DNA of 64,000 nt, taken from positions 1 through 64,000 of the forward strand of contig NZ_JABASR010000004.1 of the NCBI RefSeq assembly GCF_016107525.1. The letters run 5' to 3'. The translations under genes were made by a program, and so were the position numbers. This DNA is from Psychrobacter aquimaris (GTDB lineage: Bacteria > Pseudomonadota > Gammaproteobacteria > Pseudomonadales > Moraxellaceae). Of this stretch, positions 6,031 to 41,267 are shown in pieces; within the stretch, counting starts at the first letter, position 1; the number at the start of each line of letters is the position of its first letter. A model generated the notes under the pieces. That model worked only from the letters and a program-made list of their open reading frames with translations, was not told the DNA's origin and did not search any database.

Positions 6031-6082
6031 AGCGGCCTATCTTTTAAGCGAATAAGAGAAAATGGAAAATAAAAAAAGATAT

Positions 6083-8867: not shown

Positions 8868-9209
8868 TTACTCATCAAGCAAGCTATCGGTCTTAGCCGC
8901 CATGACAAAGTCGTTGCGATGCAAGCCTTTAATACTGTGCGACCACCACGTTACTGTAACTTTACCCCACTCTACCAATATCCCAGGATGATGACCTTCT
9001 GCTTCAGCGATGTCTGCCAGTTGATTGGCAAATGCCATCGCCTTGACGAAATTTTTAAACTTATATTGACGTTGTAATTGCTTGATGCCATCGACTTCTA
9101 TCAACGACCAATCCGGAATTTGTTGCAATAGTTCTTGTGCTTCATTGTCGCTGACTGTCGGTGCGCCAATACGGCAGGCTTCACAGCTGGCTTGTGATAA
9201 TGTCGTCAT
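8868..9209 (-). CDS. phhB: Pterin-4a-carbinolamine dehydratase
   Basis: A 113-residue enzyme that dehydrates 4a-hydroxytetrahydrobiopterin, recycling the cofactor of phenylalanine hydroxylase. The active-site cluster EGHHPGI (His73, His74) and the second motif [15 protein letters not shown] (His91) are both present. Length fits bacterial PhhB (about 115). ATG 9209 is preceded by AAAAGGAT. It lies 172 bases after phhA on the same strand, the usual phhA-phhB order, but the intergenic gap contains a short mobile-type repeat (9232-9297). The N-terminal Cys9/Cys12 pair is unusual but not known to matter. Confidence 0.92.
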
Positions 9210-9381: not shown

Positions 9382-10326
9382 TTAGGAGTTTTTCACCGCA
9401 TAACTAGGCTCAAACAATCCTAGGGACATGGCTTGTTTGACCATTCCCATGATATCGCTATTAACAATATCAAATAATGTATCCAAATCATCAATGACAT
9501 AATAAATCGGCTGGATATGATCGATACGATAAGGAGTACGGAGTACATCAAGCAAATCAAAGGCTCGATGTTCTGGTTGAGACTGCTTTTTTGTTTTATT
9601 TTTAGACTCATGACTGAGTGCATAGACCGTCTCAGACGGTGAGCTTAAGATGCCGCCGCCATAGATTCGGCGACTGCCCTGATTTTGTCCCACCAAACCA
9701 AACTCGATGGTAAACCAATAGAGCCGTGCTAAAAACCATCTTTCTTCTTTAGTGGCATTAAGACCCAGCTTGCCATAAGTCTCATTGAACGTTGCAAAGG
9801 CAGGATGAGTCAGCAACGGGCAATGTCCAACGATTTCATGAAAAATATCAGGCTCTTCGATATAGTCCATATCGTCCAAGCGACGGATAAAGGTTGCCAC
9901 TGGAAAGGATTTATTGGCAAGCAATTTGAAGAACTTACCAAAACTGATTAAAGCAGGGACAGCCGCGGTTTGCCAGCCAGTCGTGGCTTGCAATACTTCA
10001 TCAATATCCTGTAGCTGCGGAATACGAGTAGCGGGCAAATTCAGCTTTTTTAGCCCCTCTATATAGGCTGGGCAGGCGCGGTTGGGGATTTGCTCAGCTT
10101 GACGCTCAAGCAAGGCTTGCCACATACTATTTTCATCATCACTATAGTGAATATGACCATGGCTATCTGGCTGGTGCGACACATAAGGTTGTTTTTTAGG
10201 AATAGAATTCTGCTTTTTATGAGCAGAATCATCGTGGCTAGCTGCATCAGTGCCTAGCGTTTTGCAAGCAACGCTGTTGGCACCGATAGCTTTATTAACA
10301 GAATTCGTATGTGGTAGGCGTTCCAT
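9382..10326 (-). CDS. phhA: Phenylalanine 4-monooxygenase
   Basis: A 314-residue non-haem iron, tetrahydropterin-dependent hydroxylase that turns phenylalanine into tyrosine. The iron ligands are visible: His163 and His168 in PDIFHEIVGHCP and Glu208 in WFTIEFG. It has a 50-60 residue N-terminal extension rich in Ser, His, Lys and Asn compared with the roughly 262-residue Pseudomonas enzyme; there is no obvious ACT domain in it. ATG 10326 has AAAGGAA upstream. phhB follows on the same strand. The upstream gap to hpd is about 190 bases, so phhA probably has its own promoter. Regulation by a sigma-54 PhhR is not supported by any gene here. Confidence 0.92.
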   Translation of the reverse strand: MERLPHTNSVNKAIGANSVACKTLGTDAASHDDSAHKKQNSIPKKQPYVSHQPDSHGHIHYSDDENSMWQALLERQAEQIPNRACPAYIEGLKKLNLPATRIPQLQDIDEVLQATTGWQTAAVPALISFGKFFKLLANKSFPVATFIRRLDDMDYIEEPDIFHEIVGHCPLLTHPAFATFNETYGKLGLNATKEERWFLARLYWFTIEFGLVGQNQGSRRIYGGGILSSPSETVYALSHESKNKTKKQSQPEHRAFDLLDVLRTPYRIDHIQPIYYVIDDLDTLFDIVNSDIMGMVKQAMSLGLFEPSYAVKNS

Positions 10327-10514: not shown

Positions 10515-11615
10515 TTACGGTGTCTCAGTCTCTGGCTGACCAACCGTGCCACGACGGACTTGATCACGCTCGATGGATTCAAATAGGGCTTTAAAGTTAC
10601 CTTCGCCAAAACCATCTTCGTAATCACCTTTACGTTGGATAAATTCGAAGAATACAGGGCTACCTAAGATAGTTTCAGAGAAAATCTGTAGCAGCAGACG
10701 CGGTGTGCCGCCTTCAGTCGTGCCATCTAACAAGATACCGCGCATCTGTAGCTCAGAGACATTCTCACCATGATTTGGTAAACGCTCACTCAGCATTTCA
10801 TAGTAAGTCGCGGTTGGGGCAGTCATTAGCGGGATACCAGCTGCTTTTAACTTATCGATACTGGCAAACAAATCATCGCTAGCCAAAGCGATATGCTGAA
10901 TGCCTTCACCGTTGAAATGCATCAAGTACTCTTCGATTTGACCGCCGCCCTGCTTTGACTCTTCGTTTAATGGGATACGGATTTTGCCATCAGGCGCGGT
11001 CATGGCTTTACTGGTCAGACCAGTGTATTCGCCTTTGATGTCAAAGAAGCGGATTTCGCGGAAGTTAAAGATGCGCTCATAAAAGTTTGCCCAATAGGCC
11101 ATACGACCACGGTAAACGTTATGGGTTAAATGGTCGATGACTTTGAAGCCATGCCCGACAGGACGACGGTCTACATCAGCAAAAAATTCGAAATCAACGT
11201 CATAAATAGACTCACCATCTTTATAACGATCAATGAGATAAATCAGTGAGCCACCGATACCCTTGATAGCAGGCAGGCGTAGCTCCATCACACCAGTTGG
11301 TACGTCTACTGGCTGCGCGCCCATTTCGATGGCACGCTCGTAAGCTTTTTTGGAATTCTGTACACGAAAGCCCATGCTACAAGCGCCAGCACCGTGCTCT
11401 TCAACGAAATAGCTGGCTTCGCTTTTTGGTTCACGACTTAGAATAAGATTGATGTCACCTTGACGGTACAGCGCAACATCTTTTGAGCGATGGTTAGCCA
11501 CATGGGCAAAGCCAAGCTGTTTGAACAATGCGTCGACCGCATCCGGTTGAGGTGAGGCGAATTCAACAAAATCAAACCCATTCAGTCTCATTGGGTTGTC
11601 AAATAAATCTGCCAT
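10515..11615 (-). CDS. hpd: 4-hydroxyphenylpyruvate dioxygenase
   Basis: A 366-residue Fe(II) dioxygenase that converts 4-hydroxyphenylpyruvate to homogentisate. It has two VOC-type halves; iron ligands fit His in [13 protein letters not shown], His in [11 protein letters not shown] and Glu in PVFFEFIQR. The conserved C-terminal [18 protein letters not shown] helix is present. I chose ATG 11615 (MADLFDNPM) because AAGGATGA lies eight bases upstream; an in-frame TTG at 11636 would cover that site. It is divergent from a LysR-type regulator, with a 17-base palindrome between them (11671-11687), so direct control by that regulator is likely. Confidence 0.95.
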
Positions 11616-11670
11616 TGTAATCATCCTTAATTTCAATTGGTGGTAAAAATGCGATAAAAAATGTCTTCCA

Positions 11671-11687: not shown

Positions 11688-11760
11688 CGATGTATTTATA
11701 TTAGATTAGGTTTATTTATAAGACTAATTGTTTTTTATGATTTATTTATCAGGTTTACTT

Positions 11761-12690
11761 ATGAATATCAGCATTCGCCAATTAACCGCTTTCATCCAAG
11801 TCGCTGATAATGGCAGTTTTACCCGTGCCAGCGATCAGATGCATTTGACCCAATCTGCCGTTAGCGGCTTGATTAAAGAACTAGAGTCCAGCCTCGGTAT
11901 TGTGCTGTTCGACCGTACTACCCGCCAGCTGTCTTTGTCAGCAGTAGGACGGCATTTATTGCCGCAAGCACGGCGCATCTTGAATGAGATGCAGCTCTTT
12001 GAAAATGAGGCGAGCAGCTTAACAAGCTTGGCACAAGGTCAAGTACGGCTCGCCGTTTCGCAGTTTGCAGCCTCCTCTATGCCAGCGGTCATCGCCCAGT
12101 TTGCCAAACAACACCCCGAGATTGGCGTGTCGTTATTGGATTGTTCGGCAGAAAACTTACTCAGACATATTCAGGACATTGAAGTAGATTTGGGTGTCGG
12201 CACCGAGCTTGGCTTTATGGAGACTGAGGACGACATCAATGCCGACCTGTTATATCAGCTGCCATTTTGTGTGGTGATGCCCGATAACCATGCGCTGGCA
12301 CAAAAACATGAAATAACGTGGCAGGATTTATTAGACATTCCGCTCATCACGCTGCAAGGCCCTTTCATTGAACAAGTGACAGCCGAGTTGGACGACCAGA
12401 TCGCCAGCCATATCCAACAGGCACGTTACAAAGTCAATTTTATGTCCACCGCGCTTGAGATGACCCGTCAAGGATTCGGCATTACCTTATGTTTGCCCTA
12501 TATGCCCGAAGTCATCGATTGGGTTAGCGCCAATGGCTTACAAATGAGGCCGCTGGCACAACCGGTTAAAATGCGGCAGTTTTTTATCTACCAGCGTTCT
12601 TCGCGTGCATTATCACCTGCTACTATTGCCTTCAAAGGCTTCTTGCAGAGCTATTTTTCCAGTCATTTTAATGACTTACAGCGTACTTAA
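11761..12690 (+). CDS. LysR family transcriptional regulator
   Basis: A 309-residue regulator with an N-terminal winged helix-turn-helix (residues about 3-62; FTRASDQMHLTQSAVSGLIK is the recognition region) and a C-terminal periplasmic-binding-like effector domain. The ATG at 11761 has AGG seven bases upstream and begins at the usual distance from the HTH; earlier in-frame TTG/ATG codons would add an atypical extension. It is divergent from hpd and upstream of tyrB, so it most likely controls the degradation genes, with an aromatic 2-oxoacid or amino acid as possible effector. That target and effector are inferred from position. Confidence 0.85.
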   Translation: MNISIRQLTAFIQVADNGSFTRASDQMHLTQSAVSGLIKELESSLGIVLFDRTTRQLSLSAVGRHLLPQARRILNEMQLFENEASSLTSLAQGQVRLAVSQFAASSMPAVIAQFAKQHPEIGVSLLDCSAENLLRHIQDIEVDLGVGTELGFMETEDDINADLLYQLPFCVVMPDNHALAQKHEITWQDLLDIPLITLQGPFIEQVTAELDDQIASHIQQARYKVNFMSTALEMTRQGFGITLCLPYMPEVIDWVSANGLQMRPLAQPVKMRQFFIYQRSSRALSPATIAFKGFLQSYFSSHFNDLQRT

Positions 12691-12855: not shown

Positions 12856-14052
12856 ATGTTTGAACGTATCGACTACTACGCGGGTGATCCAATTTTAGGG
12901 CTGATGGAAAAATATACAGCAGATAATAATCCTAAAAAGGTCAATTTAGGCATTGGTATTTATTATGATGAAAATGGTGTATTGCCCGTACTTGACTGCG
13001 TAAAAACAGCCGAAGAACGTATTGCCGATCCTATTGCTCCGCGTCCATATCTGCCAATGGCAGGCTTGCCAGGACACCGTAAAGGCTGTCAAGAATTACT
13101 ATTTGGTAAAGATGCACAGATTTTAAAAGATGGCCTAGTCGCTACTATTGCTACGATTGGCGGTTCTGGTGCGTTAAAAGTCGGCGCTGAATTCATCCAT
13201 GAATGGTTCCCACAATCTAAATGCTATGTGAGTGATCCAACATGGGGCAACCACATTGCCATTTTTGAAGGCTCTGATATCGAAGTGGGTAAATACCCGT
13301 ACTACGACAAAGCCAACAGCAGCATCAAGTTCGATGAAATGATTGCGTTTTTTGAGACATTGAACAAAAATGATGTGATCTTGCTCCATCCTTGTTGCCA
13401 CAATCCAACGGGGTTAGATTTGACCCGTGAGCAATGGGATACTGTGCTGAACGTCATTCAAGCACGCGAACTGATTCCATTCATGGATATTGCCTACCAA
13501 GGCTTTGGCGAAGATATGGACAGCGATGCTTATGCGATTCGTAAAGCTGTCGATATGGGCTTGCCATTGTTTGTCAGCAATTCATTTTCTAAAAACTTAT
13601 CGCTATATGGTGAGCGTGTCGGCGGTCTATCGGTTGTCTGCCCAACGGTTGATGAGACAGAGCGTGTCTTCGGTCAGCTGAATGCTACCGTACGCCGTAT
13701 CTACTCAAGCCCGCCATCACATGGTGGCCGTGTGGTCGATATCGTCATGAATGACGAAGCGCTGCATGATCAATGGGTTGGCGAAGTTTATGCGATGCGC
13801 GACCGTATCAAAGCCATGCGCTTAAAGCTTAAGTCAGTATTAGAAGCCAAAATCCCGAACCGCAACTTTGACTATATTACCCGTCAAAATGGCATGTTTA
13901 GCTTTACTGGTCTGACGCCTGAGCAAGTCGAACGCTTACAAAGCGATTTTGGCATTTACATGGTTTCCAACTCACGTATGTGTGTGGCTGGACTGAACAC
14001 CAGTAACATCGACTATGTTGCCAATGCCATGGCAGACGTCTTAAAAGACTGA
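12856..14052 (+). CDS. tyrB: Aromatic amino acid aminotransferase
   Basis: A 398-residue class I fold type I PLP aminotransferase. The Schiff-base lysine is Lys246 in SNSFSKNLSLYGERVG; HPCCHNPTG (178-186) and the C-terminal arginine in NSRMCVAGL are conserved. This subgroup interconverts tyrosine/phenylalanine and aspartate with their 2-oxoacids. ATG 12856 has AAGGAA upstream. Placed between the LysR gene and fahA, it would feed 4-hydroxyphenylpyruvate to Hpd. A hairpin with a T-tail follows, so it is probably its own unit. Aspartate aminotransferase activity is an alternative or additional role. Confidence 0.88.
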   Translation: MFERIDYYAGDPILGLMEKYTADNNPKKVNLGIGIYYDENGVLPVLDCVKTAEERIADPIAPRPYLPMAGLPGHRKGCQELLFGKDAQILKDGLVATIATIGGSGALKVGAEFIHEWFPQSKCYVSDPTWGNHIAIFEGSDIEVGKYPYYDKANSSIKFDEMIAFFETLNKNDVILLHPCCHNPTGLDLTREQWDTVLNVIQARELIPFMDIAYQGFGEDMDSDAYAIRKAVDMGLPLFVSNSFSKNLSLYGERVGGLSVVCPTVDETERVFGQLNATVRRIYSSPPSHGGRVVDIVMNDEALHDQWVGEVYAMRDRIKAMRLKLKSVLEAKIPNRNFDYITRQNGMFSFTGLTPEQVERLQSDFGIYMVSNSRMCVAGLNTSNIDYVANAMADVLKD

Positions 14053-14304: not shown

Positions 14305-15594
14305 ATGTCAACGATTGACAATACCCTCACATCCTTTATCAATATCGCCGCTGATTCTGACTTTTCTATTCATAACCTGCCTTATGGTATTTTTAGTGAT
14401 ACCAAAGATGGCAAACGACGTGCTGGTGTGGCTATCGGTGAGTACGTGTTGGATTTGGCTGTGCTCGAAGCAGAAGGTTTACTGAGCTTAGAGGGCGGTC
14501 AATATTTTGATCAACCAACGCTAAACGCCTTTATTGACTCTGGTCGAGACAATTGGACTCAAGCACGCACAACCATCCAAACCCTACTATCTAATGCCAG
14601 CGATACCTTGCGCGACAATCAAGATTTGCAGAAAAAAGCGCTATTTAGTCAATCAGACGTCACCATGCATCTGCCTGTTCACGTACCAGGTTTTACCGAC
14701 TTCTATTCGTCTAAAGAACATGCGACCAACGTCGGCACCATGTTCCGTGATCCAAACAACGCCCTACTACCTAACTGGACTGAAATGCCAGTCGGCTATA
14801 ACGGACGCGCCAGCACCGTCATCGTCAGTGGCACTGATGTGATACGCCCCTCTGGTCAATTAAAGCCAAATGCTGACGCCCGCCCTATTTTCTCAGCCTG
14901 TAAGCGTTTAGATTTTGAACTTGAGACTGCTTTTGTGGTTGGTAAAGGCAATAGCATTGGTCAACCGATTGCAGTAGACAATGCCTTTGAGCATATTTTT
15001 GGCATGGTCTTGCTCAACGACTGGTCAGCCCGTGACATTCAAAAATGGGAATATGTGCCTTTAGGTCCATTCAATGCCAAGACCTTCGCTTCTGAAGTAT
15101 CACCTTGGATCGTCACCATGGATGCATTGGCACCTTTTAAAACGGCATGCCCGATTCAAGAGCCAAAACCATTGGCATATCTAAATGAAAAAGACAGCAA
15201 TAATAGCTATGACATCACTCTGTCAGTTGAGTTATTGCCTGAAAATGCAGAAACAGCTACGGTCATTTGCGAGACCAATTTTAAGTACATGTACTGGTCT
15301 ATGGCGCAGCAACTCACGCACCACACCATCACTGGCTGTAAAGTAGAAGTTGGCGATATGATGGGCTCAGGTACGATTTCAGGGCCAACGCCTGACTCTT
15401 ATGGCTCGATGTTAGAGATTGCTTGGAATGCTACCAAACCATTAACGCTTGAGGGCGGCGCAACACGCAGCTTTATCGAAGATGGCGATACAGTGATCAT
15501 GAAAGGCTATAGCGAAAAAGACGGCGTGCGTGTTGGTTTTGGTGAAGTGCGCGGCAAAGTACTGCCCGCGCTTAACTTTGATTTCGATAAATAG
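14305..15594 (+). CDS. fahA: Fumarylacetoacetase
   Basis: A 429-residue hydrolase that splits fumarylacetoacetate into fumarate and acetoacetate, the last step of tyrosine breakdown. It has the N-terminal FAA domain (residues about 20-120) and the C-terminal catalytic domain with the metal and active-site segments VPGFTDFYSSKEHATNVG, KRLDFELETAFVVGKGN and NDWSARDIQKWEYVPLGPF. Length matches the family (about 420-435). ATG 14305 has AAGGAG eight bases upstream. The VOC gene follows 114 bases later on the same strand. Confidence 0.94.
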   Translation: MSTIDNTLTSFINIAADSDFSIHNLPYGIFSDTKDGKRRAGVAIGEYVLDLAVLEAEGLLSLEGGQYFDQPTLNAFIDSGRDNWTQARTTIQTLLSNASDTLRDNQDLQKKALFSQSDVTMHLPVHVPGFTDFYSSKEHATNVGTMFRDPNNALLPNWTEMPVGYNGRASTVIVSGTDVIRPSGQLKPNADARPIFSACKRLDFELETAFVVGKGNSIGQPIAVDNAFEHIFGMVLLNDWSARDIQKWEYVPLGPFNAKTFASEVSPWIVTMDALAPFKTACPIQEPKPLAYLNEKDSNNSYDITLSVELLPENAETATVICETNFKYMYWSMAQQLTHHTITGCKVEVGDMMGSGTISGPTPDSYGSMLEIAWNATKPLTLEGGATRSFIEDGDTVIMKGYSEKDGVRVGFGEVRGKVLPALNFDFDK

Positions 15595-15708
15595 TCTAGA
15601 AAAAATGTGAGCACAGTTGTTTTGAGCTGCCAAGCAACCATCGACCTATAGTCAATCGGTACTGGCAGCCTATCTACTCACTGCATTCCCTATCAAAAGG
15701 AGTTTGAT

Positions 15709-16284
15709 ATGAACTTTAAAATTGAAAAGATTCATCATGTGGCCTATCGCTGCAAAGACGCCAAAGAAACTGTTGAATGGTATCAAAAACACCTAAACAT
15801 GGATTTCATCCTTGCATTCGCTGAAGACCACGTGCCTTCGACCAAAGCCTTTGACCCTTATATGCATGTTTTTTTAGACGCAGGTAACGGCAACGTATTG
15901 GCGTTTTTTGAAGTACCCAATCAGCCTGAAATGGGTTTTGATCCGAATACCCCAAACTGGGTGCAACACTTAGCTTTGAAAGTAAAAGATCGTGATGAGC
16001 TAATCCTTGCTAAAGAGCATTTGGAACAAGGCGGCATTGATGTCATTGGCGTCACGAATCACGGTATCTTTCACTCTATTTACTTCTTTGATCCCAACGG
16101 CCATCGTCTAGAGCTGACATACGACGACCCGACCTCAGAAGACAAGGTTTCTATGATTACCGAAGTCATTAAGCAAGACATGCTTGATGAATGGTCTCGT
16201 ACCAAACGCGCGCCTGCGCATACTCAGTTTTTACACGCCGAAGAGTTGGCTGAAGCACGAGAAGTCGCACCTGTCGGTGAGTAA
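15709..16284 (+). CDS. VOC-superfamily metalloenzyme, candidate ring-cleavage dioxygenase
   Basis: A 191-residue vicinal-oxygen-chelate protein with two beta-alpha-beta-beta-beta modules. Likely metal ligands are His10 (IHHVAYRC), His87 (WVQHLALKV) and Glu135 (GHRLELTYDD); Glu68 (FFEV) is a fourth possible one as in glyoxalases. Residues 116-135 (TNH, five residues, IYFFDPNGHRLE) fit the extradiol ring-cleavage dioxygenase signature as I remember it. Start ATG has AAAAGGAG upstream. It sits between fahA and maiA in a region that lacks HmgA, so it may cleave homogentisate or act beside that step. A glyoxalase or isomerase role is the alternative. Family sure, reaction unproven. Confidence 0.8.
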   Translation: MNFKIEKIHHVAYRCKDAKETVEWYQKHLNMDFILAFAEDHVPSTKAFDPYMHVFLDAGNGNVLAFFEVPNQPEMGFDPNTPNWVQHLALKVKDRDELILAKEHLEQGGIDVIGVTNHGIFHSIYFFDPNGHRLELTYDDPTSEDKVSMITEVIKQDMLDEWSRTKRAPAHTQFLHAEELAEAREVAPVGE

Positions 16285-16427: not shown

Positions 16428-17483
16428 ATGATGAAAATAAAAACCCCTATAGGAATACTCTTAGCAACCTCGATTGCGATGACTGGCTGCTCTAATAACG
16501 AACAAGCAGCAAGCGCCGATGTCAATACAGGCGACGTGACGACTCTGAGATTTTCACACTTTATGACGGCCAATGACAACATAAACACCGAGGCATTGCA
16601 GCCATGGGCAAAAAAAATTGAAGAAGACTCAAAGGGCCGCTTAAAGATTGAAATCTACCCGTCTGCTACTCTCAGCAAACCGGGCGCTACCTATGACGCT
16701 ACCGCGAAAGGCATCGTTGATATCGGTATGCAAGCACAAGGATATACAGCAGGACGGTTTCCTTTAACGCAGATTGTAGAGCTGCCAGGTATTACCAATA
16801 CCGCACAGCAGCAGAGCTGTATACTTCATAAGCTCTATGACGAGGGTGTCATTAAAAATGAGTACGAAGATACTCACCTGCTCGCGCTCATCGGAACAGG
16901 ACAAGGCGCCCTTCATACTGTTGATAAGCCTATTCGCACGCCAGCCGATATGAAAGGCTTACGTATTCGCCAACCTTCTGCGGTTGCTAGCCACATTATC
17001 GAGGCGACTGGTGCCGCACCCGTTGGCATGCCTGCCAGTGATACCTATACCTCGCTTCAGCGCGGTGTCATTGATGGGCTGAGCTTTACTTGGCAACCCA
17101 TTCAAGCCTTTCGTCTTGATGAGCTCATCAATACACATACCAACATACCTTTTTATAACTCTACCTTTGTCATCAGTATGAACAAAGATAAATACGACAA
17201 TTTGCCCGATGATCTCAAAAAAGTAATTGATGATAATTCAGGGGCGGAGATGGCAGCACGTGTCTCCAAAGTATTTGATATCAGTAATGCCAAAGCCATG
17301 GCTGCCGCTAAAGAAAAAGGCGATATCATGATCGATATTCCTGACCCACTCAATGACCCAGACTGGAAAGGTCCATTAATGGAGGGCTCGCAGCACTATC
17401 TAGATGAAGTCAATGCCACTGGTCTAGATGCTAATAATGTATACGAAAAAGCAAAAGTAGCCAGTAGCGCCTGTATGGTTTAA
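16428..17483 (+). CDS. TRAP transporter solute-binding lipoprotein (DctP family)
   Basis: A 351-residue periplasmic binding protein of the DctP/TRAP type. The N-terminus carries a signal with lipobox MTGC (Cys21), so it is probably lipid-anchored. Family features include the KGRLKIEIYPSATLSKP segment, GLRIRQPSA with the ligand-carboxylate arginine, and SLQRGVIDG. Two adjacent ATGs (16428, 16431) follow GAAAGGA; the second has better spacing. No DctQ or DctM membrane gene is nearby, so it is an orphan here. Its position between the VOC gene and an IclR gene suggests an aromatic or keto-acid ligand, which is an inference. Confidence 0.85.
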   Translation: MMKIKTPIGILLATSIAMTGCSNNEQAASADVNTGDVTTLRFSHFMTANDNINTEALQPWAKKIEEDSKGRLKIEIYPSATLSKPGATYDATAKGIVDIGMQAQGYTAGRFPLTQIVELPGITNTAQQQSCILHKLYDEGVIKNEYEDTHLLALIGTGQGALHTVDKPIRTPADMKGLRIRQPSAVASHIIEATGAAPVGMPASDTYTSLQRGVIDGLSFTWQPIQAFRLDELINTHTNIPFYNSTFVISMNKDKYDNLPDDLKKVIDDNSGAEMAARVSKVFDISNAKAMAAAKEKGDIMIDIPDPLNDPDWKGPLMEGSQHYLDEVNATGLDANNVYEKAKVASSACMV

Positions 17484-17566: not shown

Positions 17567-18430
17567 CTATGCTATTTGATAGCGCTGCGCGATTGCTAGT
17601 ATTTGCTCAACCACGTTGTGTTGCTCACTCATCGGCAATTGCTCTGTCGTTCCAATGATAGTGATGGCGTATTCTAGTGGTAGACCTTTGCCAGCAGTTT
17701 TGTCACTAATAGCAAGCTGCGGTAATATGACAGGAATTGTGATGGCATTAATCCCCATCAGCATATCACCAGTGACCGTCGCATAGCCTTGGGTACGAAT
17801 CTTGGCTTGCAAGTGACTGAAATTCTGCCATTTTTCTGTAATTATTGCTTCATTGTCATTCTGCCATTCAGCTGTGACCAATGGCTGAATGACCTCATCA
17901 GATTGATAGCTGGCAAATAATTGCCCTGTAGCTGATGTCGTCAAAGGCATGCGTGAACCGATGCGAGTGATAATACTAATCGGGCTGTCTGGTTCAACTG
18001 ACTGAATAATAATAGGGCCTTCGCTAAACCATTTGGCAATCTGCACACCGCAATTCAAGGTATCCTTAATTTCATTAGCGATGTGCGTCAGCCGCTCTAA
18101 AATATTGTTTTGACTAAATCCAGAATGCCCAAATGCTGCCAATGTGTTAACCCTATCGCCCAGCCCGTAGCGACCATCATCAAGCTTACGCGCATAGTTT
18201 TTACGAATGAGGCTGACCAAATAGCGGTGACACTTTGCTGGATGCATTTGCATCACTTGCGCAATGTCTTTTAACATCATTGGCTCGTTATGATCGATAA
18301 GAACGTCTAATACCGACAATCCAATCTCCAGTGACTGTACGCCATTCTGGCTTTTATTGGTTGTCGCCGTATTGTCTAAAGGGTTTTCAGCTACTGGCAT
18401 GTTTTGCTCAATGAATAATTTACTTGGCAT
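17567..18430 (-). CDS. IclR family transcriptional regulator
   Basis: A 287-residue regulator with an N-terminal winged HTH (about residues 30-92; LKDIAQVMQMHPAKCHRYLVSL is the HTH core) and a C-terminal IclR effector domain ending near the motif GINAITIPV. Such proteins often control aromatic degradation operons. It is divergent from maiA and convergent with the TRAP gene, so maiA is the nearest likely target. A full-length 173-bp mobile-type repeat now separates the two promoters. The start at 18430 lacks a clear ribosome site; an internal ATG ten codons later is possible. The effector is unknown. Confidence 0.87.
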   Translation of the reverse strand: MPSKLFIEQNMPVAENPLDNTATTNKSQNGVQSLEIGLSVLDVLIDHNEPMMLKDIAQVMQMHPAKCHRYLVSLIRKNYARKLDDGRYGLGDRVNTLAAFGHSGFSQNNILERLTHIANEIKDTLNCGVQIAKWFSEGPIIIQSVEPDSPISIITRIGSRMPLTTSATGQLFASYQSDEVIQPLVTAEWQNDNEAIITEKWQNFSHLQAKIRTQGYATVTGDMLMGINAITIPVILPQLAISDKTAGKGLPLEYAITIIGTTEQLPMSEQHNVVEQILAIAQRYQIA

Positions 18431-18517: not shown

Positions 18518-18690
18518 TAGGGCGTGTCCTCAATTCAATCGATTATCCTCTAAATGGGCTAAAAATGGTTAAGTTTTGCCAAACATCGTCATATAGCTTA
18601 TCAATATCTCGATATTATTTGCGCTACTTTCCTTGTTTGACGGCAATTTATACATTTTTATCACCATTTTTAAAATGAGGACACGCCCTA
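18518..18690. mobile_element. MITE-like TA-flanked inverted-repeat element, full copy 1
   Basis: TA, then GGGCGTGTCCTCA at 18520-18532; TGAGGACACGCCC at 18676-18688, then TA. The 13-base ends are perfect inverted repeats. The centre has no coding capacity. The same sequence occurs in reverse at 41094-41267 with only a few differences. The flanking TA pair fits an element that duplicates TA on insertion, as IS630/Tc1-type and some IS5-group elements do. It sits between iclR and maiA. Confidence 0.8.
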
Positions 18691-18741: not shown

Positions 18742-19443
18742 ATGATGACACTTTATGGCTACTTTCGCAGCAGCACTTCTTATCGTACTCGTATCGCGAT
18801 GAATCTAAAAGGCTTAGACTATGACTATATTTCGGTCAATTTAGCACAAGATGAGCAATTAGCAGATGCGTTTAAATCACTCAATCCTCAAGGGTTGGTG
18901 CCTGTCTTACAGGCAGATGATTTATTACTATATCAAAGCCCCGCCATCCTAGAATGGTTAGAAGAAGTCTATCCTGAGAATGCATTATTGCCCAAAGACG
19001 CGGCTGGGCGCATGCAAGTACGTGCCATTAGCGCTATGATTGGTTGTGATATTCATCCGATTAATAATCGCCGTATCTTACAATATCTACGCAATGAGCT
19101 GTCAGTAGACGAAGCAAAAGTCATGACGTGGTGCAACCGTTGGATGAGTGAGGGATTTACGGCGTTAGAGAAAATACTAGCAAAAGACAAAACCCGTGGA
19201 AAATTTTGCTACGGTGATAGCCCTACTTTTGCAGATTGCTATCTGATTCCTCAGGTTTCTTCGGCGCGACGGTTTAAAGTAGATTTAAGTGCTTATCCCA
19301 ATATCGTCGAAATTGACACGCATTGCCGTATGCTCAAGGCCTTTGCCAACGCTGATCCTAGCATGCAGCCCGATGCGCCCAAGCCTCAACAAATAATCAA
19401 ACAGGGTTCTTTCAGTAAGGGTGTTTTGCTATTAAATGACTAG
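18742..19443 (+). CDS. maiA: Maleylacetoacetate isomerase (zeta-class GST)
   Basis: A 233-residue glutathione-dependent isomerase that converts maleylacetoacetate to fumarylacetoacetate. The thioredoxin-like N-terminal half has the zeta-class motif SSTSYRTR (residues 10-17; the usual form is SSCSxR with Cys replaced here by Thr) and NPQGLVPVLQ; the helical C-terminal half contains GCDIHPINNRRIL and the FCYGDSPTFADCYLIPQ motif. ATG 18742 has AAAAGGAA upstream. A mobile repeat ends 51 bases before the start, so its promoter may lie in or next to that repeat. The Thr at the Cys position is seen in some members and need not abolish activity. Confidence 0.92.
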   Translation: MMTLYGYFRSSTSYRTRIAMNLKGLDYDYISVNLAQDEQLADAFKSLNPQGLVPVLQADDLLLYQSPAILEWLEEVYPENALLPKDAAGRMQVRAISAMIGCDIHPINNRRILQYLRNELSVDEAKVMTWCNRWMSEGFTALEKILAKDKTRGKFCYGDSPTFADCYLIPQVSSARRFKVDLSAYPNIVEIDTHCRMLKAFANADPSMQPDAPKPQQIIKQGSFSKGVLLLND

Positions 19444-19754
19444 AAAATTAAATGATTAGCAAATTAAATAACAAAATGCCCTTATAATTTCTGGGCTCAG
19501 ACAGAGCAGTCAAAGCTAATGACTGCCTGAAAATATGCAAAGTATTGATACTCTTAAACCAAATATAGTATTCAATATTTCATTACATCATCACCTCTAG
19601 TTTTCATCTCAATATAATATTTTATATATTCAAATTATTGGTTGTATAGCAGTCAACTGTTGGCTATTCTTGGTATAGGCGTTGTTATATCTCAAATTTA
19701 GAATTGATTTTAGATAAACATACTGTTTTATCCATTAAAATAAGGTTGGAAATT
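19444..19754 (+). other. Intergenic region maiA to oxygenase gene
   Basis: This 311-base gap has no gene. A GCAGTCA/TGACTGC stem (19506-19526) without a T run may be a weak terminator of maiA. The second half is very AT-rich and probably holds the promoter of the next gene. I see no repeat from the TA-flanked family in it. Confidence 0.4.
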
Positions 19755-20936
19755 ATGAGTTATACACCTTTATCAAATAACAAAGACGCTCTACCATCCG
19801 ATACAGCTGAAGATATTTATGATTTAGCCCTATCGGCTAGAGAAGAAACCGAAACCTCTAGAAAAATTGCACCGACAGTGGTTAAAAAACTGTCAGAGTT
19901 GTCGCTATTTAGGATGGGATTACCAAAATCGTTGGGAGGATGGCAAGGCAATCCTGTGGAAACATTAAAAGTTTATGAGACGCTAGCCAGTGCTGAAGCC
20001 TCAGTTGCTTGGATCGTTTGGAACAACCATTTGGCCTGCACATTTGGACGATTTTTAGACGAGCCTGGTATGAAAGAGATATACAGTGACCCCTCTCATG
20101 TCTATGCCAACTCAGCACGCCCTGAAGGGGTGGCTGAGCAAACAGCAGAAGGATATATGGTCTCAGGTCAATGGACATTAGTATCAGGTTGCGAATTGGC
20201 AGACTGGTTTGTGCTACGTTGCTTAGTAATATCAGAAGGCTCACCCACCACCCTTGGGCCAGGTGCAAATTTAAAGCTGTTTTTTATTCCAAAAGAAGAT
20301 GTGGAAGTGATTGATACTTGGCATGTTGGTGGACTAAATGGTACAGGCAGTCACGACATCGTTATTAAAGACGCTTTTGTGCAGGAGCGTTATGCGGTCG
20401 ACTTTTATAGCCCTGTTGCCATCGATAATGCGTATAGTCGCCTACCAATTGGTTGTATTAACGCAGCTGGCTGTGCAGCGATGGCACTGGGTGTCTTAAA
20501 AGCAGCGACAGATGAGTTAATCCAAATTTGCCTTGAGAAAGTCACGCCAAGTAAAAGCCCAGATTTGCGTGATCGTGCAGCGGTACAGGCGACTATCGCT
20601 AAGAGCAAAACACTATTAGCGTCTAGGCGCTCGCAATTACATAATAGTGTCGAGGTATTATGGAACGAAGCCCAGCAACAGAACACCTTCACGGATATAC
20701 AGCTGGCTGATGTGTGGGCAGCAGCCTGTGAGGCAGCGAGAGAAGCCAGAGCCATGGTATCGGAGATTTATGCTGTCGCTGGTACGGTCTCGCTATATAA
20801 AAAACATAGAATAGAAAGAGCGCATCGAGACATTCATGCTATTTTACAACATGGCATCGTGCAGCCACATTGGATGGAGCAAGCCGGTATGACTTATGTC
20901 GGATTGACCCCAAATGCAGCCATGTTCAGAGTATAA
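19755..20936 (+). CDS. Acyl-CoA-dehydrogenase-fold flavoprotein, probable group D monooxygenase
   Basis: A 393-residue protein with the three-domain acyl-CoA dehydrogenase fold: helical N-terminus, beta middle domain with SGQWTLVSGCELADWFVLR, and helical C-terminus with YAVAGTVSLYKKHRIERAHRDIHA. This arrangement, and the lack of the usual catalytic Glu segment of dehydrogenases, fits DszC/HpaB-like flavin monooxygenases, which need a partner reductase. None is adjacent. ATG 19755 follows AAGGTTGG; an upstream TTG start is rejected. Being next to maiA, its substrate may be aromatic, but that is only a guess. A terminator follows. Confidence 0.75.
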   Translation: MSYTPLSNNKDALPSDTAEDIYDLALSAREETETSRKIAPTVVKKLSELSLFRMGLPKSLGGWQGNPVETLKVYETLASAEASVAWIVWNNHLACTFGRFLDEPGMKEIYSDPSHVYANSARPEGVAEQTAEGYMVSGQWTLVSGCELADWFVLRCLVISEGSPTTLGPGANLKLFFIPKEDVEVIDTWHVGGLNGTGSHDIVIKDAFVQERYAVDFYSPVAIDNAYSRLPIGCINAAGCAAMALGVLKAATDELIQICLEKVTPSKSPDLRDRAAVQATIAKSKTLLASRRSQLHNSVEVLWNEAQQQNTFTDIQLADVWAAACEAAREARAMVSEIYAVAGTVSLYKKHRIERAHRDIHAILQHGIVQPHWMEQAGMTYVGLTPNAAMFRV

Positions 20937-21168: not shown

Positions 21169-24100
21169 TTAGTCAAAATGGAAGCCTGCACCAATCGAGC
21201 CACCTGCATTACCTTGGGTATCAGCGGTGCCATTTACCTTAATGACCCAACGACCATCATTAGATAACTTCGAGAAGCCAATAGCGACCGCACTTTCCCC
21301 ATTGTACGTTCCTATACCGCCACCGATTAAGGATTTACCGGCGATATAAGCTTGCGGTAATGAAGACATTGCCATGGCGGCTGAGATACCAGCATTTGCA
21401 TCGTCTTCGACTTCACCAATTTTATAACCCAATTGGTTCATATTGTCATCCAGTCTTTTATCAAGTGCACTTAATTGACCGAAATTGACAGCATCTCTGG
21501 GTGCCATACCGTCAGCCACATCAGTGATCTTGTTGCCAGCGGCGTTGATACCGCTTGCAGTCATACTAGGACCACCGACGATGCTAACGCCATTATTATT
21601 GACTGTCGTATTGCCAGTCTTGACGCTATCTATACTAATGTTACCGTTTAGATCAAACTTAATACTACTGCCTGCTGCTGTGGTGGTGATGTTATTGCCA
21701 CCTGTGAAGTTAAGGACACTGCCATCGCCTACTGGTTTATTGATGGTAGCACCGCTATCAGCACCAAAATTGAGACCTGCATCTATTTTATCCTTGTTCA
21801 CTTTGATATTGGTGGTGTTGGTGTCGATGTTTGTCTTATTCGTGGCAATGTTTGTGGTATTGGTTTGAATATTGGTGGTGTTGGTTTGGATGTTTTCATT
21901 GATAACGATTTCTCCTTGCTTAATAGAAGCAATCGCACCATCGATACTATTTTGACCGGTACCACCAATATTACTATTGGTAAAGGTGCCATCTACAGGA
22001 TTGTAGACTGTCTCACCGCCAATGATACTACTGATGCCACTGCCTTGTGCATAGAGCTGACCACCGTTGATGGCATCTTTGCTACCTACAGAGACAGCGC
22101 CATTCGCAACGTTTGTAATCTTAGTGTCAGCAGCATTGATACCCGCTTTGGTGACACTAGGTCCGCCTGCAATAGTCAGACCATTACTATTAATAATGGT
22201 GTCACCCGCTGTTATGCTGTCCACATTCAGATCTGGGTTTAAGTCAAAGCTAATGTCATGAGCACCGGCTGATGGCGCAGCAGCACGTAGCCCAGGGCTA
22301 ACATTATTGTCTGCTGATCTAGACACTCTAATATTGCCATCGCTGCTGTTAAAATCAACGGCACTTCCTGGATTCACTAAAGTAGCCGTGTCACCTTGAG
22401 CTGTTATTCCCCAACCTTCATTCGAACCAGAAGTCGCTGCTGTTAATTGCCCTAAGTTTACTGCATCAGTATCCAGTATACCTGCGCCAACATTAGAGAT
22501 AACGTTACCACCATTATTGAGACCACGGTTGCTAAGTATGACTGTTCTACCAGAACCACTGTCCATAAAAGTAAAGCCATTACTATTCATAATGCTATTA
22601 CCAATCTGCATGCTACCCTCATTGCCTAAGTTCAACTGGTTATTCAGTTTCACCTGAACACCTGTTGCCGAGGCCATCGTCGTAATATTGCTATCACCAG
22701 TAACGTTGATGGTATCACCTAAGGCAAACTGCTGGTCGTTGACACTATTGCCATCACCGATTTTGATGCCTTTGGCCACTATACTATTGGTTGCTGACAA
22801 TTGATCGAAGTTTACTGCATCCTTACCAGTGGTAGCTTCTGCAACGTTAGTAATTTTATTACCGCCGTTGTTTAGACCATTGGCTGAGATGCTGACACCG
22901 CTACCAAAATTTGCACTGTTAAGACCAGTTAAATCTTTCGCAAGTTTCACGGTCAATGTGCTGGTACCGTCAGCAACGACGCCAACGTTGTTCCCATTTG
23001 ACAAGTCGCCTACCACTGTCGCACCACCTTTGACCGTTAGCTTATCACCAAGCTTACGATTGACGGTAGTACCCATGTCACCATTGAAGTCGAGACCTTT
23101 ATCTATCGTCGTGGTTGTGGCTCTTAGTTGACCAAAGTTTACTGCATCATTGTCTAGTGACCCATCAGCGACATTGGTAATTTGATTGCCACCATTATCC
23201 AAGCCACCATTACTGAGTCTGACCGTTTGATTGGCACCACCCGTGAATGTGACACCATCATTGTTGACGACTGTAGTTCCTGTGGTCAAGCTGGTTGAGA
23301 CTAAGTCGGCAGCAGTAGCAACTTTAATACTGCCACTGTCAGCGGTTAAGACAATATTATCTCCGTTAATAAAGTTGGCTGTATTATTGTCTTTATCCAG
23401 AGTTTTGACTTCTGCACCATTGATTTGTGTCACTACCGTTTGCATCGCACTATCTGCTTTGACCAAGCTTGCCTTGCTACCTTCGCTTAGATCAACTTGA
23501 TAGTCGGTGATATTGGTATCAATGTTTTTATCACCCGCTTTGACCGTGACAGCGCTCGACCCTGCCGAAGCAGTTGAACCATTAGCATTGATAGTATAGA
23601 CATCCTGTCCAGTATCGCTATCAGTTGAAAAATCAACACTGGTAACATTTGTACCTTTGAGCACTTTGGTTCTCGCTCCTGCAGCTGCCATCCGTACATC
23701 ACCGATGTTTGCTGCATTGGTTACTGTATTACCACCGCTTTTTACTCCCATGATCTGGGTGTCGTTGGCATTGATACCAGTAGTAGAGATACTAACACCA
23801 CCAAAATCTGCACTAGTGAGGCCAGTTAAAGTTGGAGACAGACCGAGGGCAATGCCATCAGCACTACTAAGCGCTGTGGTGGTTAAATTACTATCCGTAT
23901 CAAACTTAATTTCTTCACCCAAGGCGAAGGTTTTTTTGAGGGTACCGCCGCTGCTTGCGTCGTTTACATTAAAATTGATGCCTTTAGCGATATTATCAGC
24001 GTTGGTACCAATATTGGTCGTATTGGTTGAAATATTGCTAGTATTGCTGGTTACTTGTTGATTGGTCTGGAACAACTGACCGCCATTGATAGCGTCTTTA

Positions 24101-26040
24101 CTATTTAGGCTGACTGCACCATCATCCACATTAATAACCTTCTTATTACCTGCATTGACTCCGCTCTTCGTGATGCTTGGACCATTTAAAATGGTCAGAC
24201 CATTACTGGTTAGCGTGGCATTGGTAGGATTAAGTATGCTTCCACCCGTTACCGTGACACCTGTACCACTAACCGTAGTTACGCCAGTAAGCACTCCGCC
24301 AGTGACAACGCCTAGACCATTGACCGTCGTGCCATTTAGCAAGTTACCGGTGCTAACGCTGCCTGTTGTACCTAGGTTTAAATTGTCATTGAGCTCAACT
24401 TCGATTTTGCCATTATTTACTCGGGTATCGATGTTGCTGTTGGAGCCAACTACCTCAACGGCTTGTCCCAATGGTTTTTGTACCGTATTACCATCAGCGG
24501 CTTTTAACCCAAACCCTTTGTTAATGGTAGTGGTATTACTTCCTACCGCTTCATTGGTCGCGTACAACTGACTACCATTCACCGCGTCTGTACTGGCCGC
24601 AGTGACAGCTCCACCAGCGACATTTTTGATCTGGCGCTCAGATCCTACTACGCCCACGGATACTTGCGCACCCTCTCGTAGCATACCCTTATCATCGATG
24701 ACATTACCGGCGATATCATATACCACGCCACCAACGGTCATCGTCTTTTCTGAGCTAGCATTTGTTGCTGTTGTTGAGCCTGCACCGAGAGAGACTGAAC
24801 CATCTTTACTCGCTGATGCGCCAACACCAAACGCTGACGAAGCAGTTCCCGATGTGTTGGAATGAATACCAACGGCTGTAGATAGATCCCCCTTAGACAA
24901 CGACTTTGCCCCAATGGCTATCGAGGCAGCACCTCCAGCTTCGGTATTGACATCATATTGATTGGTTTCTACCAGATCTTTACCTACATAGGATTTGAAT
25001 GCCTCGTTAACTGTGCCTCCATTTAATGGCGACAGCGGACTACCATCGATATTAGTTTTCGATGCAAAATTTAGGTCATCACCGCCTATTGCGATAGAGG
25101 ATGCCCCTCTAGACACTACATTAGCGCCGATAGCAATAGATTGCTCACCACTTGCCATCGTCTGTTGCCCAAATTCTGAGCTACCAATCGCAATGGTTTG
25201 GCTGCCCGTTGCTTTTGCATTTCCGCCCATCGCCATGGCGTTATAACCTGTCGCCCCGTCGTTATTAGCATTACCGATAGCGGTTGAGTCCACGCTGTAA
25301 TACTTGGTTTTATTGTCCTTGACTACATTTGCCAATCTATATAACTGCGAACCATTCACCGCATCTTTACTCATTGCCGTTACATCGCCGTTATCTACAT
25401 TGATTATTTTATTATTACCATTATTAAGACCGTTACTACTAAGTGTAATGTTATTGGCTGCATTGATCGCCACGATCTTAACCCCAGAGTTATCGATCAA
25501 AGTATCACCCGTTTTAAGGCTGCCATTAGCACCAAGATCGATGCTTTCAGCTAATTGGACGGTTAAAGTATCACCTATACCGAATACCCCGATATTACCA
25601 GTCGTTAGCGGTCCAGTTGCACCCCCTAAAATATTAAGTGTCTCGCCATTACTGCGTGTGATAGTTGTCGCATTATCACCTTCGAAGTTGAGTGTTATTG
25701 AACCTTCAGGATTATCGTGATCAGAATTATTGTTGTGACTATTGTTACCCGAAGTATGGGTATGAACCCCTTGACTACCGTGGTTGTGACTATAGTCACC
25801 ATCATGGTGATTCTCTGTGCCTATAGCATTCGCCTGTATGCCGAAACCAGCAGCCAGCAGCCCTATTGCTATCGTGGATAAGCGGAAAAATTGGGTAGAA
25901 GAAAGGTTAGGAGTAGTATTGATGGTCGCGTTTGCGCTCACGCTAGATTTGGAAGATTTGCCGCGCCCCTTTGCATACTCGCCAACTGCGGTAAAACAAT
26001 TCAGGGCTTCATTCCATATTACTTTATAGATGCGATTCAT
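21169..26040 (-). CDS. Trimeric autotransporter adhesin (YadA-like)
   Basis: A 1623-residue surface fibre. Residues 1-32 form an extended signal peptide region (MNRIYKVIWNEALNCFTAVG) and a hydrophobic signal follows to about 72. Residues 78-108 contain eight His among Asn, Ser, Gly and Asp. YadA-type head repeats (AIG / SIAIG / TAIG units) span about 250-425, with neck motifs such as DAVNGSQLY near 227-233 and 486-492. A long stalk of repeated neck, beta-prism and coiled-coil modules (including NTTNIQTNTTNIATNKTN) leads to the membrane anchor at 1556-1623 ending in Phe-His-Phe-Asp. AAGGGAG precedes the ATG. Its function is attachment or autoagglutination; the ligand is unknown. Confidence 0.93.
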   Translation of the reverse strand: MNRIYKVIWNEALNCFTAVGEYAKGRGKSSKSSVSANATINTTPNLSSTQFFRLSTIAIGLLAAGFGIQANAIGTENHHDGDYSHNHGSQGVHTHTSGNNSHNNNSDHDNPEGSITLNFEGDNATTITRSNGETLNILGGATGPLTTGNIGVFGIGDTLTVQLAESIDLGANGSLKTGDTLIDNSGVKIVAINAANNITLSSNGLNNGNNKIINVDNGDVTAMSKDAVNGSQLYRLANVVKDNKTKYYSVDSTAIGNANNDGATGYNAMAMGGNAKATGSQTIAIGSSEFGQQTMASGEQSIAIGANVVSRGASSIAIGGDDLNFASKTNIDGSPLSPLNGGTVNEAFKSYVGKDLVETNQYDVNTEAGGAASIAIGAKSLSKGDLSTAVGIHSNTSGTASSAFGVGASASKDGSVSLGAGSTTATNASSEKTMTVGGVVYDIAGNVIDDKGMLREGAQVSVGVVGSERQIKNVAGGAVTAASTDAVNGSQLYATNEAVGSNTTTINKGFGLKAADGNTVQKPLGQAVEVVGSNSNIDTRVNNGKIEVELNDNLNLGTTGSVSTGNLLNGTTVNGLGVVTGGVLTGVTTVSGTGVTVTGGSILNPTNATLTSNGLTILNGPSITKSGVNAGNKKVINVDDGAVSLNSKDAINGGQLFQTNQQVTSNTSNISTNTTNIGTNADNIAKGINFNVNDASSGGTLKKTFALGEEIKFDTDSNLTTTALSSADGIALGLSPTLTGLTSADFGGVSISTTGINANDTQIMGVKSGGNTVTNAANIGDVRMAAAGARTKVLKGTNVTSVDFSTDSDTGQDVYTINANGSTASAGSSAVTVKAGDKNIDTNITDYQVDLSEGSKASLVKADSAMQTVVTQINGAEVKTLDKDNNTANFINGDNIVLTADSGSIKVATAADLVSTSLTTGTTVVNNDGVTFTGGANQTVRLSNGGLDNGGNQITNVADGSLDNDAVNFGQLRATTTTIDKGLDFNGDMGTTVNRKLGDKLTVKGGATVVGDLSNGNNVGVVADGTSTLTVKLAKDLTGLNSANFGSGVSISANGLNNGGNKITNVAEATTGKDAVNFDQLSATNSIVAKGIKIGDGNSVNDQQFALGDTINVTGDSNITTMASATGVQVKLNNQLNLGNEGSMQIGNSIMNSNGFTFMDSGSGRTVILSNRGLNNGGNVISNVGAGILDTDAVNLGQLTAATSGSNEGWGITAQGDTATLVNPGSAVDFNSSDGNIRVSRSADNNVSPGLRAAAPSAGAHDISFDLNPDLNVDSITAGDTIINSNGLTIAGGPSVTKAGINAADTKITNVANGAVSVGSKDAINGGQLYAQGSGISSIIGGETVYNPVDGTFTNSNIGGTGQNSIDGAIASIKQGEIVINENIQTNTTNIQTNTTNIATNKTNIDTNTTNIKVNKDKIDAGLNFGADSGATINKPVGDGSVLNFTGGNNITTTAAGSSIKFDLNGNISIDSVKTGNTTVNNNGVSIVGGPSMTASGINAAGNKITDVADGMAPRDAVNFGQLSALDKRLDDNMNQLGYKIGEVEDDANAGISAAMAMSSLPQAYIAGKSLIGGGIGTYNGESAVAIGFSKLSNDGRWVIKVNGTADTQGNAGGSIGAGFHFD

Positions 26041-41096: not shown

Positions 41097-41267
41097 GGCA
41101 TGTCCTCATTTTAAAAATGGTGATAAAAATGAGATAAATTGCCGTCAAACAAGGAAAGTAGCGCAAATAATATCGAGATATTAATAAGCTATTTGACGAT
41201 GTTTGGCAAAATTTAGCCATTTTTAGCCCATTTAGAAAGTAATCGATTGAATTGAGGACACGCCCTA
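41094..41267. mobile_element. MITE-like TA-flanked inverted-repeat element, full copy 2
   Basis: TA, GGGCATGTCCTCA (41096-41108), then TGAGGACACGCCC (41253-41265) and TA; 174 bases in all. Read in reverse it matches the copy at 18518-18690 almost throughout, for example the shared core AATATCGAGATATTA and CAAACAAGGAAAGTAGCGCAAA regions. One end has a G-to-A change. Its left TA and first G are the dnaE stop codon. Confidence 0.8.

Follow-up and report, generated by a model that had tools for sequence, protein, structure and literature searches.

A single-domain VOC protein proposed as the homogentisate 1,2-dioxygenase of Psychrobacter aquimaris

We propose that a 191-residue VOC protein of Psychrobacter aquimaris is a single-domain type I extradiol dioxygenase that functions as a homogentisate 1,2-dioxygenase, and that it is not homologous to HmgA, the cupin usually responsible for this step. 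We put the probability of this reading at roughly nine in ten. It is based on the gene itself, the absence of HmgA, the conservation of the protein, its fold and its genomic associations. An earlier note on this DNA had suggested the VOC protein as an alternative enzyme for homogentisate cleavage. The suggestion is now supported by the lack of HmgA in the genome and by a PDB entry, 9u42, that is 76% identical and titled as such an enzyme; the activity of the Psychrobacter protein itself is inferred.

The gene and its surroundings

The window (the whole stretch of DNA that was analysed, 64 kb) contains a cluster of genes for phenylalanine and tyrosine breakdown, listed in Table 1. PhhA, TyrB, Hpd, MaiA and FahA had already been recognised in the region from the sequence, and curated models identify each of them with a score above its cut-off. 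A further open reading frame on the minus strand is taken to be phhB-like. The VOC frame has an ATG start with a ribosome-binding-site-like sequence just upstream, and it is not spurious, since homologues with 87–94% identity are found beside fahA in Psychrobacter genomes.

Table 1 Features of the cluster, with positions in the window
Feature	Position	Strand	Basis
phhB-like pterin carbinolamine dehydratase (presumed)	8868..9209	-	ORF; assigned from position and sequence features
phhA, phenylalanine 4-monooxygenase	9382..10326	-	TIGR01267, 324.8 bits, above cut-off
hpd, 4-hydroxyphenylpyruvate dioxygenase (makes homogentisate)	10515..11636	-	TIGR01263, 389.6 bits against a cut-off of 277
LysR-family regulator, between hpd and tyrB	11728..12690	+	PF00126 and PF03466
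tyrB, aromatic amino acid aminotransferase	12856..14052	+	PRK09257 subfamily, 559 bits, above cut-off
fahA, fumarylacetoacetase	14305..15594	+	TIGR01266, 591.6 bits against a cut-off of 375.3; 114 bases upstream of the VOC gene, same strand
AAAAGGAG, ribosome-binding-site-like, ending 6 nt before the VOC ATG	15695..15702	+	Direct sequence reading
VOC-type homogentisate 1,2-dioxygenase (proposed), 191 aa	15709..16284	+	Pfam, PDB sequence and fold matches, the best being 9u42
His10 codon, proposed metal ligand, module 1	15736..15738	+	Invariant in 49/49 homologues
His87 codon, proposed metal ligand, module 2	15967..15969	+	Invariant in 49/49 homologues
Extradiol signature, residues 116–135, with His118, Tyr125 and putative metal ligand Glu135	16054..16113	+	Pattern search
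TRAP-type solute-binding protein (DctP), after the VOC gene	16428..17483	+	PF03480
IclR-family regulator of the cluster (proposed)	17567..18430	-	PF09339 and PF01614
maiA, maleylacetoacetate isomerase	18742..19443	+	TIGR01262, 281.4 bits against a cut-off of 171

The genes are arranged in the order phhB, phhA and hpd (all on the minus strand), the LysR gene, tyrB, fahA, the VOC gene, the TRAP gene, the IclR gene (minus strand) and maiA. The VOC gene had been described as lying between fahA and maiA. It is indeed next to fahA, but the TRAP gene and the IclR regulator intervene before maiA. Both intervening genes have counterparts elsewhere: several Acinetobacter and Psychrobacter loci have an IclR homologue close to the VOC gene, and in other loci, from Psychrobacter and Marinomonas, the VOC gene is likewise followed by dctP. 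TRAP membrane partners for DctP were not identified in the scanned parts of the window, and a scan of the DNA for promoters and terminators gave scores no better than those of shuffled sequence.

The window has some other features of interest. Ends of the sequence AGGGCGTGTCCTCAAT occur as inverted pairs with a spacing of about 172 bases, forming a small MITE-like element. There are pairs at 18518–18690 and 41095–41266, one of them just before maiA, and single ends at 6081, 9281 and 16374, giving seven ends in the window compared with 0.03 expected. On the other side of maiA, 19704–20936 (plus strand) encodes a protein that resembles group D flavin monooxygenases, with HsaA and p-hydroxyphenylacetate 3-hydroxylase as relatives at scores below the cut-offs; it may feed another phenol into the tyrosine pathway. 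Two adjacent large open reading frames on the minus strand (29793–31418 and 31474–33471, 541 and 665 residues) have no Pfam match at E 0.001, and a third, at 21169–26040 (minus strand, 1623 residues), reads like a trimeric autotransporter adhesin, judging from its repeats and terminal region.

Family, fold and proposed mechanism

The VOC protein matches PF00903 (E 1.5e-15, above cut-off). No NCBIfam or Pfam model names its function, and the NCBIfam models for glyoxalase I, catechol 2,3-dioxygenase and fosfomycin enzymes all score far under their cut-offs. An identity as glyoxalase I was rejected at 20.2 bits for TIGR00068, against a cut-off of 120, as was an identity as a Fos enzyme, the curated FosA, FosB and FosX models scoring no higher than 31.8 bits where the cut-offs are 171–280. 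The protein has no Pfam or NCBIfam match to the HmgA cupin models PF04209, PF20510 and TIGR01015.

The earlier note picked out His10, His87 and Glu135 as possible 2-His-1-Glu ligands. These three residues, together with His53, His118 and Tyr125, are the same in each of the 49 homologues that were aligned, even in distant ones with 32–37% identity. Residues 116–135 (TNHGIFHSIYFFDPNGHRLE) were also said to fit the extradiol signature, which we take to be [GNTIV]-x-H-x(5,7)-[LIVMF]-Y-x(2)-[DENTA]-P-x-[GP]-x(2,3)-E, and they do match it. Of 96 homologues, 94 contain this pattern, compared with none of 5140 other open reading frames from the same loci (1.05 million residues), so that the match is not due to chance. 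The presence of Glu68 is likewise confirmed: the residue is Glu in 47 of the 49 homologues and Asp in two, and the two-domain homologue 1zsw has a Glu aligned with it as well. As in type I (VOC) extradiol enzymes, there is a putative 2-His-1-Glu set on a VOC fold, with a second-shell His and with a Tyr before the Glu.

AlphaFold2, supplied with the family alignment, generated a model with a pLDDT of 89.9, in which the order of strands and helices is that of two VOC modules. A comparison by structure prediction with known VOC dioxygenases, as had been proposed, was made by running Foldseek against the PDB. The first match is 9u42 (E 2e-29, TM 0.83/0.93, 76% identity over 169 alignment columns), and the next characterised one is L-DOPA dioxygenase (6on1/6on3); glyoxalase I and FosB/FosX are also among the neighbours. 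A sequence search of the PDB again has 9u42 as best match (E 8.5e-96 over residues 1–181), where it is shown as 'Glyoxalase'. This entry, released on 2025-07-23, is titled 'Crystal Structure of Homogentisate 1,2-Dioxygenase from Acinetobacter in Complex with Zn ion'. It weighs against the assignment that the function comes from a deposited title, for which a literature search found no paper, that the molecule name is 'Glyoxalase' and that the crystal contains zinc.

The resemblance to 9u42 extends over the fold, all of the signature residues and the gene neighbourhood in Acinetobacter, and the A. baumannii orthologue is grouped with fahA, maiA and hpd as in the window. There are differences: 9u42 is an Acinetobacter protein, the Psychrobacter protein is about 10 residues longer at the C-terminus, and in Acinetobacter the VOC gene and maiA are direct neighbours, whereas dctP and iclR separate them in the window. 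L-DOPA dioxygenase is also a single-domain VOC extradiol enzyme, but the identity is 19% and its substrate is a catechol (an ortho-diol). The second match in the PDB sequence search is 1zsw, and MhqO (3oaj) is among the matches of a family-profile search. Proteins of this type (E 5.8e-20 with the family profile), of which we take PcpA and LinE to be relatives as two-domain VOC ring-cleaving dioxygenases, differ in having two domains, about 335 residues and other substrates. In the MhqO, PcpA and LinE group, cleavage of para-diols (hydroquinones) beside the hydroxyl is established. Homogentisate is a substituted hydroquinone, and the proposed chemistry therefore has a precedent. HmgA (TIGR01015/PF04209/PF20510) has the same reaction and pathway position as those proposed here for the VOC protein, but is unrelated in fold and sequence, with approximately 430 residues rather than 191.

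On this basis the following mechanism can be suggested. His10, His87 and Glu135 would coordinate the metal, which would be Fe(II). Homogentisate, the hydroquinone produced by Hpd, would bind this metal through the ring hydroxyl that neighbours the acetate side chain, and O2 would bind beside the substrate, with the second-shell residues His118, His53 and Tyr125 steering proton transfer. The ring would then open between the carbon that carries this hydroxyl and the one that carries the acetate, yielding 4-maleylacetoacetate, from which MaiA and FahA would produce fumarate and acetoacetate.

HmgA, genome distribution and Acinetobacter genetics

The earlier note reported no HmgA in the window and left room for an hmgA gene elsewhere. 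The former is correct, and the latter is not borne out: neither PF04209 nor PF20510 has a match in the window or in the whole genome, and in the control set Caulobacter was picked up by the same searches. With a draft assembly of 41 contigs, a cupin HmgA might have been lost in the gaps, but the genome (3.43 Mb) is 99.99% complete, and none of 99 Moraxellaceae genomes has HmgA, which gaps cannot explain. A hidden HmgA can therefore be rejected in practice, its probability being negligible. Gentisate dioxygenase was considered as a stand-in and rejected, TIGR02272 having no match in the genome.

Canonical fumarylacetoacetase is present in 20 of the 99 Moraxellaceae genomes, and all 20 have the VOC gene. 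Seven further Moraxellaceae genomes, from one genus, carry a VOC gene with 60–64% identity without a canonical fumarylacetoacetase. Each of the seven encodes, beside the VOC gene, a shorter protein of 315–344 residues with weak similarity to FahA (the one that was scanned, in locus L130, contains PF01557 and PF18288), and in four of these genomes maiA or hpd lies in the stretch examined.

Among 321 gammaproteobacterial genomes, 15 have a canonical fumarylacetoacetase: nine have only HmgA, six have only the VOC gene (counted as present above 40% identity; four at 60% or more and two at 41–43%), and no genome has both or lacks both (Fisher p = 2e-4, without correction for relatedness). Hpd is found in 48 of these genomes, of which 25 have HmgA, nine the VOC gene, none both, four a distant HmgA-like cupin and ten neither. 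All nine that carry the VOC gene lack HmgA (p = 5e-4, again uncorrected for relatedness). The VOC gene is also adjacent to hpd and to fahA or maiA in loci without HmgA from beta- and gammaproteobacteria and Holophagae. Replacement of HmgA by the VOC protein is supported by this exclusion and by the co-occurrence in Moraxellaceae, and further by a fusion with Hpd and an A. baumannii mutant, both described below.

The four distant cupins resemble HmgA_C (G005:C17, G036:C102, G052:C66 and G286:C293; E 1e-4 to 1e-9, frames of 384–507 residues). They are encoded no more than about 2 kb from hpd, in genomes with neither a normal HmgA nor the VOC gene, and are perhaps a further variant of the homogentisate step.

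In a metagenome-assembled genome of Rhodoferax sp. (MAG STA_46, L083:8858–10540, plus strand), Hpd and the VOC protein are joined in a single frame of 561 residues. Residues 1–356 are 71% identical to Hpd, and after a short linker residues 382–560 are 66% identical to the VOC protein. The third-position GC is high throughout the frame, and HmgA has no match in this genome. The fusion is known from one MAG, in which an assembly error is possible. It joins the maker of homogentisate to its user, as is predicted if the VOC protein is the dioxygenase, and is possibly a two-step enzyme. A long frame around the VOC gene of another locus (L006, 369 residues) was rejected as a fusion, Hpd there being a separate open reading frame that ends at 1483.

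Published work on A. baumannii can be reread in this light. In strain AB4353 no hmgA was found, and a gene with a type I ring-cleaving-dioxygenase domain between hmgC and hmgR was guessed to be a distant, inactive HmgA (PMC7646211, 2020). In DETAB-R21 (CP088895) a gene called hmgA is interrupted by Tn2006, with the target-site duplication CATTTTTTT, and pyomelanin is produced; overexpression of 'hmgA' from a plasmid abolishes the pigment (PMC9431530, 2022). Among the pathway genes, CATTTTTTT occurs once only, in the VOC gene, in all five Acinetobacter loci that were compared (L024, L025, L030, L138 and L139, three of them A. baumannii), which for a 9-mer is weak evidence taken alone, as about two chance matches are expected per 20 kb. 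The site is at codons 26–28 in the A. baumannii frame. Because the authors also place the interrupted gene in the homogentisate pathway, the site points to the VOC gene as the gene that was hit. If so, the orthologue would be needed in vivo against accumulation of homogentisate.

The name hmgA seems to have been used differently elsewhere. The reference given for it in PMC11945678 (NC_016603.1:3098928–3099560) is 633 bp long and directly follows a 1308-bp 'hmgB'. In A. baumannii VB958, maiA and fahA have just these lengths, and this 'hmgA' is therefore probably maiA. Three records labelled as A. baumannii plasmids (NZ_CP064203.1, NZ_CP077849.1 and NZ_CP104448.1), at 3.7–4.1 Mb, look like chromosomes.

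Other possible roles and wider significance

HmgA is found in 20 of 50 VOC-bearing genomes tested, mostly alphaproteobacteria, and is missing from the other 30. Many alphaproteobacteria have HmgA in one operon with a VOC orthologue of 63–72% identity, and in Ruegeria and Phaeobacter the order is HmgA-FahA-hydroxylase-VOC-MaiA. Substitution for HmgA is thus not the sole reason for keeping the VOC gene. A homologue of the PRK08132-type FAD hydroxylase is present in 29 of 39 HmgA-positive loci, usually just upstream of the VOC gene, whereas the HmgA-negative loci more often have Hpd as the partner (20/37). Examples with HmgA and VOC in one cluster, and this aromatic hydroxylase before VOC, are the loci L042, L054, L085 and L092. 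In a tree of 80 VOC sequences, members from HmgA-positive and HmgA-negative genomes are interleaved, with 10 label changes and many weak branches, and there seems therefore to have been repeated gain or loss of HmgA beside a conserved VOC gene. The alphaproteobacterial VOC protein could serve a second entry route, in which the hydroxylase supplies homogentisate or a related para-diol.

The frequency of the hydroxylase would also fit a family that primarily cleaves some other para-diol made by a flavin hydroxylase, the role in homogentisate breakdown being recruited or secondary. We consider this unlikely. The catalytic residues are no different between VOC proteins from HmgA-positive and HmgA-negative genomes, the clusters are shared with FahA and MaiA, which are specific to products derived from homogentisate, and the hydroxylase could itself yield homogentisate from 2- or 3-hydroxyphenylacetate. 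The coexistence with HmgA in alphaproteobacteria can also be read in terms of a glyoxalase-like, glutathione-dependent isomerase or lyase that works beside the pathway while another enzyme cleaves homogentisate, for example as an additional maleylacetoacetate isomerase or as a detoxifier of reactive homogentisate products. The nearly invariant Glu68 would complete the four-ligand set of glyoxalase I, and glyoxalase I and FosB/FosX are fold neighbours. However, the protein falls far short of the glyoxalase I model, a Glu aligns with Glu68 in the two-domain 1zsw as well, and the cluster already encodes MaiA. An isomerase acting after ring cleavage is not readily reconciled with a homogentisate pigment when the gene is hit, nor does such a role readily explain the mutual exclusion with HmgA, and the title of 9u42 also speaks against it. 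We regard it as very improbable, and retain the assignment as homogentisate 1,2-dioxygenase.

The 2025 title of 9u42 has already put this type of enzyme on record, and the Psychrobacter protein is a well-supported further member. What is added here is the wide distribution, the mutual exclusion with HmgA, the fusion to Hpd and the hydroxylase context. A tentative reading of all of these together, to which we would give slightly less than an even chance, is a widespread ring-cleaving VOC family of Proteobacteria and Acidobacteriota MAGs, which is the sole homogentisate dioxygenase in most of the sampled VOC-bearing beta- and gammaproteobacteria. Its fusion to Hpd could channel homogentisate, and in HmgA-bearing alphaproteobacteria it would form a second, separately fed module, supplied with homogentisate or a related para-diol by the PRK08132-type flavin hydroxylase.

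VOC orthologues in plasmid records are annotated 'VOC family protein', and the word 'homogentisate' does not occur in the GapMind paper (PMC9007349). Because the annotation at this step says only 'VOC family protein', the pathway looks incomplete in such genomes. For Psychrobacter, Acinetobacter and many further bacteria, the proposed enzyme would supply this missing step of tyrosine and phenylalanine breakdown, and it would provide a clear case of one reaction carried out by two unrelated proteins, the VOC enzyme and HmgA.
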